Shown piece after piece: positions 37,147 to 44,675 of a stretch of DNA of 64,000 nucleotides. The notes beneath the pieces were generated by a model. The model did not search any database. It had not been told where the DNA came from and saw nothing but the letters and a program-made list of their open reading frames with translations. This DNA is from Weissella diestrammenae (lineage in GTDB: Bacteria > Bacillota > Bacilli > Lactobacillales > Lactobacillaceae): contig NZ_CP060724.1 of assembly GCF_014397255.1 (NCBI RefSeq), positions 1,426,001 to 1,490,000 of the forward strand, read 5' to 3'. Position 1 is the first letter of the stretch. Every line of letters starts with the position of its first letter. Made by a program: the position numbers and the translations under genes.

Positions 37147-37547
37147 ACATGTGCTTATTAGCTAAATATCTAAGAAACAAGACAGTGTATTAATCAAGAG
37201 AAATCGAAAGAGAGAGTTTTTGTTTGACATTCTGTCAGCGATGCTAAGTTGTTGGAATTGATTAGTTAACGTCAGTATGTCCAGCATCATTTTTTGAAAG
37301 CATCTATGCCTGTATTTTTGAAGCTCAGAGATGTGAGTACTAGATTTGGGTTGATTTTTGTCAGATTTAGTCAGTGAATTATCGGTAGTCATCTTTTGAG
37401 CTTGTTGGTTACACATGTTAATAAAACATTATTTATGAAGTATAATGAAAGCATTTTATTATTTACCACGGAACATGTTAAACTGAAATGTAACATTCAA
37501 AAAAAGAATGTTTTATATTAGTTTAAAACGGAAAAGTGAGTTGTAAT
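37147..37547. other. AT-rich intergenic stretch after dprA
   Basis: About 400 bases. A leftward 84-codon frame (37162-37416) has no ribosome site and no family resemblance, so I do not call it. A hairpin AACATTC/GAATGTT (37492-37512, loop of seven A) with TTAT after it lies just before the next gene and may end the dprA transcript or lie in the leader of the following one. Confidence 0.5.
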
Positions 37548-39065
37548 ATGATAAAGAGTCAATATGAGATGCGTGAACATAGTTGGTGGACTAAAATTTT
37601 AGTCTGGTGTGTCTTAATATTAGTTGGAATAATTCTAGTCTCGACAATGTTATCTGGAAATCTTATATCGTATAATTATGCTTTTAATGGGACAAAATTA
37701 GCATCTGGATTGTCGGTTATTATCATCAGTGGTGTGTTATCCTTACTAATTTTTTTAGGCAACAAAATTAGTATTTTTAATCAGAGGTGGATAACTATAC
37801 TTTTGGTATTAGGTATTCTATGCGTAACTATATATGTTAGTTTTCATTTAAGAATTGCGCCAGTTTTTGATGGCAAAGTGGTTACTAGTCAAGCATACGA
37901 TTTGTTCAATCATTTACCTTGGCGAAATTATTTTCATCAATTTGTAAATAACATTAATATTGTAACATTGACGTATATCATCACTAGTCCATTTATGACG
38001 ATGGATTTAATTCATAATTTAAATGATTTTGAAATGCTTTGTAATTTAATTGGCAATATACTGCTAATTATGACTATTATAATGACGACGTATTTATTAT
38101 TGAAATTAGTTAGTCGAAAAGGTGTCAATATTTTTCTTTTAATCACATTAATGATGACTCCAATGCTATCAGTTTTCTTTAGCGAATTATATACGCAACA
38201 AATTGCAATCACTACGTTGGTTGGTTCCTTTGTCGCATTTTATCAATTGACAAGTGGGAAAAATAGATGGGTTCATGGCGGACTATTTTTATTCTTATTA
38301 GCGTTCACCATTGTGGCACGGCCGAATATGTTTATCCCATATTTTATTTTAATAGGAATAATGGTGGTGGTTTATCGTACAAAATTTTTAAAGTTAATCA
38401 TTTGGTCGACATTGGCAATTGCGATGTTATTTGCATTTAATGCGGGATTAAAATTAGTGTCTGAGCATACGGGATACCAAAGTAATTCAACGTTGACGGA
38501 AAAATATCAGTTACCTATTTCGTCGTGGTTTTTTTTAGCGTATAATTACCAAGCACCTGGTAGAAATACACCACAAGCAAGAGACGTTTTGTATTACAAG
38601 CAGACTAAACAAGAAAAAAATGCCTATCTAAAGAAACAGACAATCAAGGCAATAAAAAATGCCGGATTGTATAAGACGTTACATTTATATTTTGATAAGG
38701 TAAATACGCTATATGGTTGGCGGTCGGATTTCAGTTTGGGTTACTTTAGACAACGTATTGGTCGTGAAACATCGACTAAATACAATATGTTCGTCACAGT
38801 GGCATCGTTATTAGCAAGTAGTTCTTTTTTGGTAATTCTTGTTATCAATCTAGTAATTGCGTTAAGATCGTTGAAAAACAACGTGATAAATATGCCCTGG
38901 TTGTTCTTTAATCTGTCATCGCTTGCATTAACATTGTTTTATGTTTTAATTTGGGAGGTTCAAGAAAGTTATGCGTTACCTTCCATTATGTTGTTTTCGA
39001 TGACAGTTGCTTTTGTTCTGAATTCTAAGTCTGACAAAGTTGCCAGTGTAACAAACGAATACTGA
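37548..39065 (+). CDS. Polytopic membrane protein, probable GT-C-type glycosyltransferase
   Basis: 505 residues with about 11-12 membrane segments. The C-terminal loop WEVQESYALPS resembles the E-x-R-x-R-Y-x-L-P element in many GT-C enzymes of the Gram-positive envelope, and FTIVARPNMFIPY fits the same fold. No soluble catalytic domain is fused. I chose ATG 37548; the frame opens at GTG 37536. It stands alone, with very AT-rich DNA on both sides and no other polysaccharide gene, so a recent acquisition is possible. Target sugar or polymer unknown. Confidence 0.65.
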   Translation: MIKSQYEMREHSWWTKILVWCVLILVGIILVSTMLSGNLISYNYAFNGTKLASGLSVIIISGVLSLLIFLGNKISIFNQRWITILLVLGILCVTIYVSFHLRIAPVFDGKVVTSQAYDLFNHLPWRNYFHQFVNNINIVTLTYIITSPFMTMDLIHNLNDFEMLCNLIGNILLIMTIIMTTYLLLKLVSRKGVNIFLLITLMMTPMLSVFFSELYTQQIAITTLVGSFVAFYQLTSGKNRWVHGGLFLFLLAFTIVARPNMFIPYFILIGIMVVVYRTKFLKLIIWSTLAIAMLFAFNAGLKLVSEHTGYQSNSTLTEKYQLPISSWFFLAYNYQAPGRNTPQARDVLYYKQTKQEKNAYLKKQTIKAIKNAGLYKTLHLYFDKVNTLYGWRSDFSLGYFRQRIGRETSTKYNMFVTVASLLASSSFLVILVINLVIALRSLKNNVINMPWLFFNLSSLALTLFYVLIWEVQESYALPSIMLFSMTVAFVLNSKSDKVASVTNEY

Positions 39066-39104: not shown

Positions 39105-39333
39105 TTGACAGAATAGTATCTTGCTTGTAAACTTACAAATATTAAGTAGGGCAATGTATTATACGTAAGAGAAGCCACGGTTGCTGTGAGTGGTGCAGGT
39201 ATATTGACTGAAATATTAACAACTCAATAGCTAAAGAGGTTCACGTTTTTGGCGTGAATAAATTTGGGTGGTACCACGAAGCTGATTTTTCGTCCCAACT
39301 GTGTTCGGTTTAGAACGCAGTTGGGACTTTTTT
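39105..39333 (+). ncRNA. T-box leader (tRNA-sensing riboswitch) before the antiporter gene
   Basis: TTGACA (39105-39110), 17 bases, TAAACT (39128-39133) is a good promoter. In the leader, AGTA (39145-39148) and GAA (39210-39212) form the loop-E of the specifier loop, closed by CAATGTAT/GTATATTG; GCCAC/GTGGT (39174-39178, 39190-39194) is the tip of stem I; TTCACG/CGTGAA is stem III; GGGTGGTACCACG (39266-39278) is the T-box. The UGGT bulge fits a tRNA with discriminator A. After GAA the bases read ATATT, so the specifier is ATA (Ile) or TAT (Tyr) depending on register. A 15-pair terminator (39292-39327) plus six T follows. Confidence 0.9.
39292..39333 (+). terminator. T-box-controlled terminator
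   Basis: GTCCCAACTGTGTTC pairs with GAACGCAGTTGGGAC (one G-T), 6-base loop, six T. Its left arm competes with the T-box antiterminator, so uncharged tRNA would allow readthrough. Confidence 0.93.
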
Positions 39334-39350
39334 ATTTAGGATTATGGGAA

Positions 39351-40712
39351 ATGATTATGGAAAATAAACAGATACCAAAATTAAGTTGGGCGATTGGGTT
39401 ATTGGCGTTATTAATTGTTATTTTTAGTGGTGGAATTATTGGCTTAGGTTTGTCACCAATTGTGCCACTTGTCACAAGTCTCTTAGTTGTGGTCATTTTT
39501 AGTAAAATGCGCCGAATTTCTTGGCAGGCAATACAAAATGACATTTTGTCTGGCCTCAAAACGGGGCTTGCGCCACTCTTTTTATTCTTATTGATTGGGA
39601 TGTTGATTGGATTGTGGATGGCAACGAATGTCATTCCAACAATGCTGTGGATTGGTTTTAAAATTTCTAATGCGGCTTGGTTTTTGCCTAGTGCACTATT
39701 AGTAACTGCTTTGGTAGGATCAATGATTGGCTCAGCTTTTACAACTCTAGCAACTGTTGGGGTGGCCTTGATGGGTGTTGGTATCGCGTTGGGCTTTAAT
39801 CCAGCTGTAGTTGCTGGGGCAGTTTTGTCAGGTGCCATTTTTGGAGATAAGTCTTCACCATTGTCAGATTCAACTAACTTGGCAGCGTCCATCGCTGAGG
39901 AAGATTTGTTTGCACACATTAAAAATCTAATGTGGACAACATTACCAGCGTTATTAGGAACATTTATTATTTTCTTGTTGATGGGATTTAATCATCAAGG
40001 TGGGAGTGTGTCCAAATTAACTGGTCTAGCGAACTTGTTGCATCCAACATGGTGGGCAATTATACCTTTGGGATTATTGATGATTATGGCATGGCTAAAA
40101 ATCCCGGCTATTCCAACGTTGTTAGTCAATATCGGAGTCTCGGGTATAGCATTTATGACAACGCATCATGCGGCTGATTTGAGTCAGACGTTATTAGAAG
40201 GCTTTAAGACATCATCACATAATCCAACGCTGATGGCATTGCTAAATCGTGGCGGGATGATGTCAATGATGCCAACGGTCATCATTATTATGTTAGCGCT
40301 GGCGTTAGGTGGCTTATTAACAGAACAAAAAATATTAGAAGCTGTGATGGCACCAATTGTTAAGCATATAAAAAGTGGCGCAGGTGTCGTAACTGGTACG
40401 GTCATTACAGGAATTACTGCGAACTTTATGATTGGTGAGCAATACCTCGCAACGATTCTACCAGGTCAATTATGGAAAACGGCATATGATCGCGTTGGTT
40501 TGTCAAGGTTAGCTTTGGGACGAGCGCTTGAAGATTCAGGCACCGTTATCAATTACTTAGTGCCTTGGGGTGTTGCTGGTAGTTTTGCTGCACAAACGCT
40601 CGGCGTTTCAGTTTCATCGTTTGCACCATATGTTTTCTTTGCGCTCCTTTCGCCAATATTCTCATTACTTTCGGCATGGACAGGCATTGGCTTGAAAAAG
40701 AATAAAGATTAA
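39351..40712 (+). CDS. NhaC-family Na+/H+ antiporter-like transporter
   Basis: 453 residues with about 11-12 membrane segments and the NhaC-family stretches GDKSSPLSDSTNLAAS (about 170) and EDSGTVINYLVPWGVAG near the C-terminus. I take the start at ATG 39351 or 39357; the frame continues upstream into the T-box and terminator and cannot be coding there. Control by a tRNA sensor argues that the substrate is an amino acid, not merely Na+. From memory, NhaC-type YheL genes with tyrosine T-boxes have been predicted as tyrosine transporters; that would fit. Confidence 0.85.
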   Translation: MIMENKQIPKLSWAIGLLALLIVIFSGGIIGLGLSPIVPLVTSLLVVVIFSKMRRISWQAIQNDILSGLKTGLAPLFLFLLIGMLIGLWMATNVIPTMLWIGFKISNAAWFLPSALLVTALVGSMIGSAFTTLATVGVALMGVGIALGFNPAVVAGAVLSGAIFGDKSSPLSDSTNLAASIAEEDLFAHIKNLMWTTLPALLGTFIIFLLMGFNHQGGSVSKLTGLANLLHPTWWAIIPLGLLMIMAWLKIPAIPTLLVNIGVSGIAFMTTHHAADLSQTLLEGFKTSSHNPTLMALLNRGGMMSMMPTVIIIMLALALGGLLTEQKILEAVMAPIVKHIKSGAGVVTGTVITGITANFMIGEQYLATILPGQLWKTAYDRVGLSRLALGRALEDSGTVINYLVPWGVAGSFAAQTLGVSVSSFAPYVFFALLSPIFSLLSAWTGIGLKKNKD

Positions 40713-41388: not shown

Positions 41389-42408
41389 ATGATGAATGAT
41401 GATGTCTTAAATCATGACATACTTGATAGTGATGAAATTCAACTTGAACAGTCATTACGTCCGACACAGTTAGACCAATATATTGGGCAAACACAGTTGA
41501 AAGCGCGATTATCAGTTTATATTCAAGCTGCCAAACAACGAGAAGAACCACTTGATCATGTTTTACTTTATGGACCACCAGGCTTGGGAAAAACGACTCT
41601 GGCAGCAGTTATCGCTAATGAGATGGTGGTCAATTTCCGAACGACAACTGGCCCAGTGATTGAAAAGCAAGGGGACCTGCTTGCGATTTTAAATGAGCTA
41701 GCGCCAGGAGATGTCTTATTCATTGATGAAATTCATCGTTTGCCACGCAATGTGGAAGAAATGCTATATTCGGCGATGGAGGATTATTATGTCGACATTA
41801 TTGTTGGTGATGGTGAGTCATCGCGACCTGTTCGTTTTCCTTTGCCACCTTTTACATTAATTGGTGCCACTACGCGTGGGGGTATGTTATCTCAACCATT
41901 GCGTGATCGTTTTGGCATAGTTGAACATATGAATTATTATACTGAGCAAGAATTAGCTGATATTATTAAGCGTTCAGCTAAAATTTTTGCGATGACAATA
42001 ACAGATACTGGCGCGATTGAACTCGCGCGTCGATCACATGGCACACCACGGATTGCAAATCGTCTATTACGTCGAGTGAGAGACTTCGCAATGGTACAGA
42101 ATAAAGACGTAGTTGATATTGATTTAGTTAACTACGCTTTGAATTTACTGAAAATTGATAGTGCAGGTTTGGATCAAGTTGATCAAAAAATATTATTAAC
42201 GATGATTAATTACTACCACGGTGGTCCAGTTGGAGTGAAAACCATGGCAGCAAATATTGGTGAAGAAATTGATACAATTGAATCAATGTATGAGCCTTAT
42301 CTGTTACAAATTGGATTTTTACAACGAACGCCGCGTGGCCGCGTTGTGACCCCAGCCGCATATCAACATTTACAAATACCTATCGATAAGGAAGAAGGGG
42401 AAAAATGA
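41389..42408 (+). CDS. ruvB: Holliday junction helicase RuvB
   Basis: AAA+ motor for branch migration. Walker [12 protein letters not shown] (about 64), Walker [12 protein letters not shown] (about 112), sensor [19 protein letters not shown] and a C-terminal winged helix with TPRGRVVTP. 339 residues. ATG 41389 and ATG 41392 are both possible. Overlaps queA by ATGA. Confidence 0.98.
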
Positions 42409-43451
42409 CTACACCACACTATACGTTGGAAGATTTTGATTATGACTTACCACATGAGTTGATTGCACAGACACCACTTGAGAAACGCGATACATCACGT
42501 TTGTTAACGTTAAATGCAACGACTGGCGAGATGACTGATCGTCATTTCTTCAATATTATTGATTATTTAGAACCTGGTGATGCAGTTGTTATGAATAATT
42601 CAAGAGTTTTGCCAGCACGGTTACATGGTATTCGTCCAGAGACAGGCGGTCATGTTGAGGTACTCATGTTGAGACAAGATCATGGGGATGTTTGGGAAAC
42701 ATTGGTCAAGCCATCACGAAAGTATCCGGTCGGTGCCGAAATTTCATTTGGGAATGGTGAATTAATGGCGACTGTGGTTGGTGAGCTAGAACATGGTGGT
42801 CGCATGATTGAGTTCCATTATGATGGTATTTTTCTTGAAATATTAGAAGCTTTAGGTGAAATGCCATTGCCACCGTATATCAAAGAAAAATTGGAAGATC
42901 AAGAACGATATCAAACGGTCTATTCAAAGGTTAATGGTTCGGCTGCTGCACCAACAGCTGGTTTACATTGGACACCGGAGTTATTGAAGGCGGTTTCTGA
43001 TAAGGGTGTCAAGCTAGTTGAATTAACCCTGCATGTTGGTTTGGGAACTTTTCGTCCAGTTGAAGAAGACGATATTGATGCACATAAAATGCATTCAGAG
43101 TTCTATCAATTGACGTCTGAGGCAGCTGCGACATTGAATGAAGTCCATGCCAATGGTGGAAAAATTGTTGCAACTGGAACGACATCAATCCGTACGCTAG
43201 AAACAATCGGCTCAAAATTTAATGGCAAATTAGAAGCGGACTCAGGTTGGACAGATATTTTTATTAAACCGGGTTATCAATGGACGACTGTTGATGCATT
43301 CATTACCAATTTCCACTTACCAAAATCAACGCTTGTGATGTTAGTTGCAGCCTTTACTGGTCGTGAGACAATCCTAAATGCGTATCAACATGCGATTGAA
43401 GAAAAATATCGTTTCTTTTCATTTGGAGATGCGATGTATGTCCATCATTAA
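42405..43451 (+). CDS. queA: S-adenosylmethionine:tRNA ribosyltransferase-isomerase
   Basis: Converts preQ1 in tRNA to epoxyqueuosine, using the ribosyl group of SAM; it acts after Tgt. The N-terminus [21 protein letters not shown] and the blocks [15 protein letters not shown] and VGLGTFRPV are family hallmarks. 348 residues, complete. Coupled to ruvB by a 4-base overlap and followed by tgt 9 bases later. Confidence 0.97.
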
Positions 43452-43460
43452 GGAGAAAAT

Positions 43461-44675
43461 ATGCGGCAAATTAGTGAATTTGATCAATTCTTAATTGATC
43501 AGTACCCTTTAAAAGAAGAATATTTGCATGACCCTAAACGACCGGTTATTTATGAACTTTTACATGTTGAAAAGCATACAGGTGCTCGTTTGGGTCGGAT
43601 TTATACGCGTCATGGCGTTGTACATACGCCAATGTTTATGCCAGTTGGGACGCAGGCATCTGTCAAAAACGTATCGCCACGTGATTTAGATGAAATTAAC
43701 GCACAGTTCATTTTGTCTAACACATATCATTTATGGGTACGTCCAGGAGATGATTTAATTGCTAAGGCGGGTGGCTTACACAAGTTTATGCAATGGGATG
43801 GTCCAATATTAACCGATTCGGGTGGGTTTCAAGTTTGGTCACTCTCAAATAATAATAAAATATCAGAAGAGGGTGTTGATTTTAGGAATCACGTTGATGG
43901 CTCACCAATGTTTTTGTCACCAGAGGTTGCGATGCGTATTCAGAACAATTTGGGCTCTGATGTTATGATGCAACTTGATGAAGCAATTCCATATTTTGAG
44001 TCTTATGATTACGTGAAAAACTCGGTTGAACGAACAACACGATGGGCGGCGCGTGCAAAAATAGCACACCAACGGCCTGAAGAACAAGCACTATTTGGTA
44101 TTGTCCAAGGTGCAGGGTTTAAGGCATTACGTCAGTTGTCTGCGGAAGGATTGGTTGATCTGGATTTGCCGGGATATGCTGTCGGTGGCTTATCAGTTGG
44201 CGAAACAAAGGAGGAGATGAATCGTGTCTTAGATTTCACAATGCCTTGGTTACCAAAAGATAAGCCTCGGTATCTAATGGGGGTTGCTGCACCAGATTCG
44301 TTGATTGACTCAGCTATTCGTGGTATCGATATGTTTGATTCCGTGTTACCAACCCGGATTGGTCGGAATGGTACACTAATGACAAAACAGGGTAGAATCG
44401 TTATTACAAATGGTAAATATAAAGATGATTTTAGTTTGATTGATGAAGAAACTGAAGATTTTGGTTCACAACACTTTACCAAAGCATACCTACATCACTT
44501 ATTTAAAGCCAATGAGTTGTACGGTCAAAATATTGCATCTGTTCACAATCTTCGTTATCTGTTAAAGTTAATGGAGGATATGCGTCGGGCAATTTATGAT
44601 GATAACTTGTTGGACTTCCGCCAAGACGTGCTTGAAAATTACGGGTATAATAAACCCAATGCACGATTATTTTAA
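43461..44675 (+). CDS. tgt: Queuine tRNA-ribosyltransferase (TGT) lacking the zinc cysteines
   Basis: Exchanges G34 for preQ1 in tRNAs with GUN anticodons. The catalytic core is intact: [11 protein letters not shown] (about 118), [12 protein letters not shown], and [14 protein letters not shown] with the second catalytic Asp. The zinc site is changed. Where other TGTs have C-x-C-x2-C and a His 26 residues on, this protein has Thr331, Asp333, Ser336 and His362: same spacing, no Cys. The N-terminus is about 25 residues longer than usual; the start is firm (AAGGAG at the right distance). Neighbours queA and yajC are as expected. Confidence 0.93.

Follow-up and report, generated by a model that had tools for sequence, protein, structure and literature searches.

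A tyrosine T-box leader with a reduced Stem I upstream of an nhaC-family gene in Weissella

How little of a T-box suffices for the switch to work? The leader of an nhaC-family gene in Weissella diestrammenae bears on this question. According to the 2020 review PMC7583486, every known T-box variety has its specifier codon either in an apical loop or in a side bulge, and function without a K-turn is listed there as an open question. We analysed the leader within a window of 64,000 nucleotides (contig NZ_CP060724.1, positions 1,426,001 to 1,490,000; coordinates below are those of the window, forward strand). A preliminary description of this DNA had proposed a full T-box in control of a transporter, had left the specifier as Ile or Tyr, and had remarked that the promoter leaves little room for the lower part of Stem I. 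Control of a transporter by a T-box is supported by the present sequence analysis, and the remark on room was correct and became our main point. The word "full" has to be withdrawn, as lower Stem I, K-turn and Stem II appear to be absent both from the Rfam fit and from the leaders of the whole genus.

For comparison, 110 nhaC loci were examined, comprising 71 distinct leaders, 19 repeats and 20 loci without a Tyr T-box under our search pattern. Most loci of the last group are from Fructobacillus and show no T-box motif; in six the motif is present, but GAA-N-TAY is not found at the allowed distance. The 71 leaders consist of 27 from Weissella and 44 from other Lactobacillaceae (Leuconostoc, Companilactobacillus, Apilactobacillus, Pediococcus, Secundilactobacillus, Limosilactobacillus and others). 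The pattern, [G/T]AA-N-TAY, presupposes a Tyr codon, and no Weissella locus was lost to it (27 of 27 loci in 27 genomes). A 28th genome of the genus (G004, 66% complete) has a partial transporter only and no leader.

Parts of the leader and the gene that follows

The promoter (39105–39133) consists of TTGACA at 39105–39110 and TAAACT at 39128–39133, separated by 17 nt, a layout found in all 27 Weissella leaders. The 5´ strand of loop E, AGTA (39145–39148), stands at the head of the inferred transcript with neither closing helix nor K-turn beneath it. Upper Stem I (39149–39209) carries two T-loops, AGAGA (39168–39172) and TGTGA (39185–39189), predicted binders of the tRNA elbow, and is supported by covariation. 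It is followed by the segment 39210–39217, made up of the 3´ strand of loop E, GAA (39210–39212), a spacer A, the codon TAT (39214–39216, Tyr) and a T. Stem III (39239–39259, GTTCACG ... CGTGAAT), found by the Rfam fit and by folding, begins 22 nt beyond the specifier. The antiterminator of the Rfam fit (39266–39296) has a TGGT bulge, within TGGTACC at 39269–39275, as the partner of the tRNA end ACCA, and competes with an intrinsic terminator and T-run (39292–39335) whose 15 pairs at 39292–39327 compare with a mean of 0.2 in shuffled sequences. The folding z-score of the leader is −3.98. Promoter, loop-E strands followed by ATATT, 15-pair terminator and TGGTACC had all been named in the preliminary description and were located in the sequence.

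The covariance-model search proposed at that stage was run and gave a match to RF00230 at 39135–39300 with 63.1 bits (E 1.9e-13). With the gathering score set at 93, a plain Rfam scan of the window lists nothing. The genome contains 15 convincing T-boxes scoring from 34.5 to 120.6 bits, only five of which pass 93, and the ten that do not include the nhaC leader and several leaders of aminoacyl-tRNA synthetase genes; a 16th match, at 18.3 bits, is not convincing. The cut-off therefore reflects stringency in searching and does not define a T-box, and the nhaC leader is still classed as one. It was also compared with the traits of T-boxes in general and of transcriptional T-boxes with a long Stem I. 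The two T-loops on top of Stem I (AGAGA and UGxRA) and the UGGU bulge occur in 27 of 27 Weissella leaders, and a codon that fits the downstream function adjoins loop E (GAA-A-UAU, Tyr). No lower helix with a K-turn closes off a side bulge around the specifier, and Stem II and IIA/B are missing, as they are in glycine T-boxes.

The gene (39351–40712, with its start at 39351 or 39357) belongs to the NhaC family, as previously described (PF03553, 160.5 bits against a cut-off of 23, E 7.4e-47); its score with TIGR00931, 359 bits, is slightly under the equivalog cut-off of 370. NhaC-type carriers with Tyr T-boxes, which the preliminary description had mentioned as known predictions, are already published (PMC2494555), and the transporter is a member of this group; it is predicted to import tyrosine. 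Upstream of the promoter, at 37536–39065, lies a 509-aa membrane-like protein that has no match in Pfam or NCBIfam.

The specifier codon and the missing base of Stem I

The reading of the codon follows from the other T-boxes of the same genome, whose genes were named by reading their translations. One base separates the loop-E GAA from the codon in valS (GAA-T-GTA), pheS (GAA-T-TTC), tyrS (GAA-G-TAC), four Met genes (GAA-A/G-ATG) and a His-type ABC gene (GAA-C-CAC); the leaders of alaS, thrS, ileS, glyQS, hisS and one permease, which do not show this simple pattern, were left out of the rule. By this spacing GAA-A-TAT of nhaC reads Tyr. A position-matched Tyr codon is present in 27 of 27 Weissella leaders, as TAT in 25 and TAC in two, and in all 44 other leaders, always as TAC. 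The two Weissella species with TAC, W. muntiaci and W. oryzae, form a single clade nested within the genus in a midpoint-rooted tree of NhaC proteins. One tRNA-Tyr gene was found, with anticodon GUA and discriminator A, in agreement with the earlier point that the UGGU bulge calls for A73. TAT had been called unusual, and rightly so: TBDB (PMC7778990) gives UAU a share of 1% among Tyr specifiers. In 26 of 27 Weissella leaders the codon is followed by U in place of the stacking purine; in the other genera it is mostly C or A that follows.

A UAC within UUUACA, a hexamer complementary to the anticodon loop of tRNA-Tyr, follows shortly past the specifier in 10 of 26 aligned Weissella leaders as judged by eye (L018–L022, L024, L039, L040, L042 and L043). 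The window leader lacks UUUACA, which thus was ruled out as a general specifier.

The anatomy around the codon is reduced throughout Weissella. The Rfam fit deletes the positions of the lower Stem I helix and the K-turn and leaves the Stem II stretch nearly all empty. From the end of the −10 box to loop E there are 4–15 nt (mostly 10) in the 27 Weissella leaders, always with a 17-nt promoter spacer, and 20–45 nt in the other 44. With the −10 box so near loop E the transcript should begin at the specifier loop, and its start is placed at about 39139–39142, 3–6 nt before loop E. The distance from the specifier motif to the T-box is 59 nt in the window and 59–75 nt in Weissella, except for two leaders (86 and 110 nt), compared with 77–99 nt elsewhere. 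A canonical closing helix with a score of at least 9 was detected in 44 of 44 other leaders, 31 of which beat shuffled sequences at p<0.05, and ten Leuconostoc leaders have in common an invariant closing helix of 4 bp. Helices with this score occur in four of the 27 Weissella leaders, none at p<0.05, and their positions are in or just behind the −10 box. Loop E is also looser in Weissella, with AGTA in 18 of 27 leaders and GGTA, AATA, GATA or TGTA in the rest, compared with AGTA in all 44 others. The tyrS leader of this genome is an ordinary T-box that has kept TAC and a closing helix, so the reduction belongs to the nhaC leader.

What remains is well preserved. In an alignment of 26 of the 27 Weissella leaders (L035 was omitted), 13 of 28 predicted consensus pairs have changes on both sides, and all 13 are in upper Stem I; the consensus fold computed from this alignment does not contain Stem III. 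Terminator stems of differing sequence are found in all 27 leaders. In sum, sequence comparison indicates that leaders throughout the genus lack the lower part of Stem I, the K-turn and Stem II. We regard the leader as a new, reduced form of T-box that reads Tyr and belongs to a known regulon. No report of a truncated Weissella T-box was found in the open-access literature.

Proposed model: a promoter in place of the Stem I base

Building on the anatomy, the Tyr codon and their conservation, all read from the sequence, we infer transcript start, tRNA binding, switching and transported substrate as parts of one model, which we consider quite probable: a transcription-attenuating Tyr T-box in which the promoter replaces the base of Stem I, leaves the specifier on an open strand and controls the nhaC importer. 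Upon tyrosine starvation, the anticodon of uncharged tRNA-Tyr would pair with the UAU specifier, the elbow would stack on the T-loop pair of Stem I, and the ACCA end would pair with the UGGU bulge, stabilizing the antiterminator and letting transcription proceed into the gene of the nhaC-type tyrosine importer. When the tRNA is charged, the 15-pair terminator would form instead. As the promoter would occupy the former place of the missing Stem I base, the specifier strand would exit loop E directly toward Stem III, with no closed side bulge, K-turn or Stem II. The looser loop E and the U after the codon suggest that binding could be poor. The T-loops, the loss of which is reported to abolish read-through in ordinary T-boxes (PMC7583486), could supply most of it. 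At the third specifier position, U would face G34 or queuosine in a wobble pair. A preference for C at this position has been tied to the S-turn of Stem II (PMC7778990), and the loss of both Stem II and the third-position C in Weissella agrees with this link. Once Stem II was gone, UAC may have become UAU; Stem II would then have been lost before the codon changed, an order that the midpoint-rooted NhaC protein tree does not fix.

Other readings of the leader were weighed. An isoleucine T-box with the specifier ATA (39213–39215), the other half of the choice left by the preliminary description, would place the codon directly behind the loop-E GAA, and the argument that a tRNA with A73 suits UGGU applies to it too. 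This runs against the spacing of one base in the same genome and against the homologues, where the ATA frame varies among CTA, TTA and GTA and the TAY frame is kept by all 27 Weissella leaders; published NhaC T-boxes, moreover, are Tyr (PMC2494555). On codon spacing and the 71 distinct homologous leaders, the Tyr half of that choice stands, and the Ile specifier is rejected as highly improbable.

The missing helix could also be hidden rather than lost, if a promoter further upstream gave rise to a full Stem I whose specifier loop is shut by a lower helix. The W. confusa group indeed has 9 bp of complementarity to the stretch behind the specifier (CTATTCCGT / ACGGAATAG), and a few other leaders have weak helices, but the former sits inside the promoter, and the candidates vary by species, do not exceed shuffles at p<0.05 and, where they score at least 9, fall in or just behind the −10 box. 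Because the best promoter, with its 17-nt spacer, lies in nearly the same place in all 27 leaders, and given the shuffle tests, we rejected this reading as unlikely. Alternatively, the T-box may be decaying, with tRNA binding gone and a leaky terminator remaining. The loss of lower Stem I, K-turn, Stem II and part of loop E, together with the wobble codon, is what decay might leave behind; the covariation in Stem I and the fact that all 27 leaders retain the Tyr codon, the T-loop pair, UGGU and a terminator make it quite unlikely. The preferred reading remains the reduced Tyr T-box with an open specifier strand.

This T-box resembles several known ones in part. With the Tyr T-box/NhaC leaders described in PMC2494555 it shares gene family, amino acid, the top of Stem I, Stem III, antiterminator and terminator; it differs in having UAU instead of UAC, in lacking closing helix, K-turn and Stem II, and in a transcript that apparently starts from loop E. 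The glycine glyQS T-boxes, as described in PMC7583486, likewise have no Stem II and lead from Stem I through a linker to Stem III, but they have a closing helix, a K-turn and a strong GGC codon, compared with an A/U-only codon with wobble here. Stem I is also shortened in the short and ultrashort Stem I T-boxes of that review; those are without the top (T-loops), whereas the Weissella leader keeps the top and is without the base. The ileS T-box of Staphylococcus aureus, proposed to have no K-turn (cited in PMC7583486), is alike by its description in this one respect. The 27 natural leaders, seemingly with neither K-turn nor side bulge or apical loop, make K-turn-free function testable, and the near-constant UAU raises the question of how a T-box tolerates a wobble pair.

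Downstream of the gene with the UAU T-box, just past ruvA and ruvB, the window contains queA and tgt (42405–44675). Their products make the queuosine that tRNA-Tyr and some other tRNAs carry at position 34. One idea is that the UAU specifier reads queuosine-modified tRNA-Tyr.

A small GGxxRY reading frame in relatives

Between terminator and nhaC, 42 of the 71 leaders have a small ORF encoding GGxxRY or a near-form (20 of 27 Weissella, 22 of 44 others). Such an ORF is recorded for L019–L024, L028, L030–L034, L036–L043, L045 and 21 leaders within L092–L117, L131–L133, L135. The element was not found in the window species, its nearest relative L018, L025–L027, L029 or L035. It is therefore a neighbouring discovery and no part of the window leader. 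The strict motif is present in 40 of 71 leaders, compared with none on the antisense strand, none in upstream stretches of equal length and a mean of 0.05 in shuffles. The Weissella DNA pattern occurs once in 17 of 28 genomes (none in G000; none with reversed controls), and the Pro-type DNA pattern has 11 matches in 10 genomes, ten with the sequence seen at nhaC. In 18 aligned Weissella ORFs (L021 and L031, with NHY for RY, were omitted), the first two positions of the G, G, R and Y codons are invariant and the third positions of G, G and R vary; the corresponding alignment for the others holds 12 of 22. Over the 42 leaders, Gly uses all four third bases, Arg is CGT or CGA in 40 (CAT and CTT once each), and Tyr is TAT in all 42. 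The uniform TAT could partly be codon usage, TAT outnumbering TAC by 93 to 22 in nine ORFs of the window; in the Weissella nhaC genes the numbers are 17 TAT and 56 TAC. Nothing meaningful matched the peptides in PHROGs, NCBIfam or Pfam, no Rfam family was assigned at gathering score to the loci of eight relatives, and no report of the ORF was found in the open-access literature.

The segment from Arg-Tyr onward can pair with the segment around the nhaC ribosome-binding site. The Tyr codon falls within this hairpin or next to it, and the hairpin ends at that site. In a swap test of 29 representatives, hand-chosen from near-identical groups of 48 leaders (the 42 and six others), the mean was −9.7 kcal/mol within species and −6.2 kcal/mol between species. 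None of 20,000 permutations was as good, nor was any of 20,000 in Weissella (12) or the others (17) taken separately; pairing was weakest in L031, L107, L113 and L135. The swap test shows that the arms pair and does not cover repression. The nhaC Shine-Dalgarno sequence often lies beside the hairpin, not inside it, and its pairing is no better than in shuffles in 14 of 17 leaders (shuffle fraction at least 0.36), so we do not claim full masking. The simplest reading of ORF and hairpin would be a classical translational attenuator, in which the hairpin at the nhaC ribosome-binding site would stay open as long as a ribosome waits at the Tyr codon.

In 18 of the 20 Weissella ORFs (L019–L024, L030–L034, L036–L040, L042 and L043), the start with a well-placed Shine-Dalgarno sequence (7–9 nt) opens a mini-ORF, (A/T)TG-GG(G/A)-TA(T/C), that stops at most two codons on, and GGxxRY lies in the −1 frame of this start-Gly-Tyr. 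No start-like codon was found in the GGxxRY frame of L030, L032, L034 and L043 (within 60 nt or back to the nearest stop); the remaining 14 have one (ATG in five, otherwise TTG, CTG or ATT/ATC/ATA). The well-placed but out-of-frame start is suggestive of slippage by −1 on G-GGG under a shortage of Tyr-tRNA: with the third codon waiting for Tyr-tRNA, the Gly-tRNA would slip back one base and ribosomes would enter the sensing frame. Against such a slip counts that, according to a 2016 review of frameshifting (PMC5009743), a slow A-site matters more for +1 than for −1 shifts. Starvation-specific frameshift products at hungry codons are, by the same review, without a known example. That one mRNA has two tyrosine sensors, the T-box with the top of Stem I and an open 5´-end specifier and, in most relatives though not in the window, a translational GGxxRY sensor triggered by frameshifting in 18 Weissella leaders, is a tentative proposal that we hold to be somewhat doubtful. 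If confirmed, the small ORF would be an unrecognised Tyr sensor across Lactobacillales, and it is a bolder lead than the T-box itself.

Four of eight further Lactobacillales stretches contain the motif, and another two look similar by eye. One of the latter, L129 (genome G045), has no T-box motif that we could find; its small ORF, of like kind, has two neighbouring Tyr codons and precedes an nhaC relative. In L135 there are three consecutive Tyr codons.
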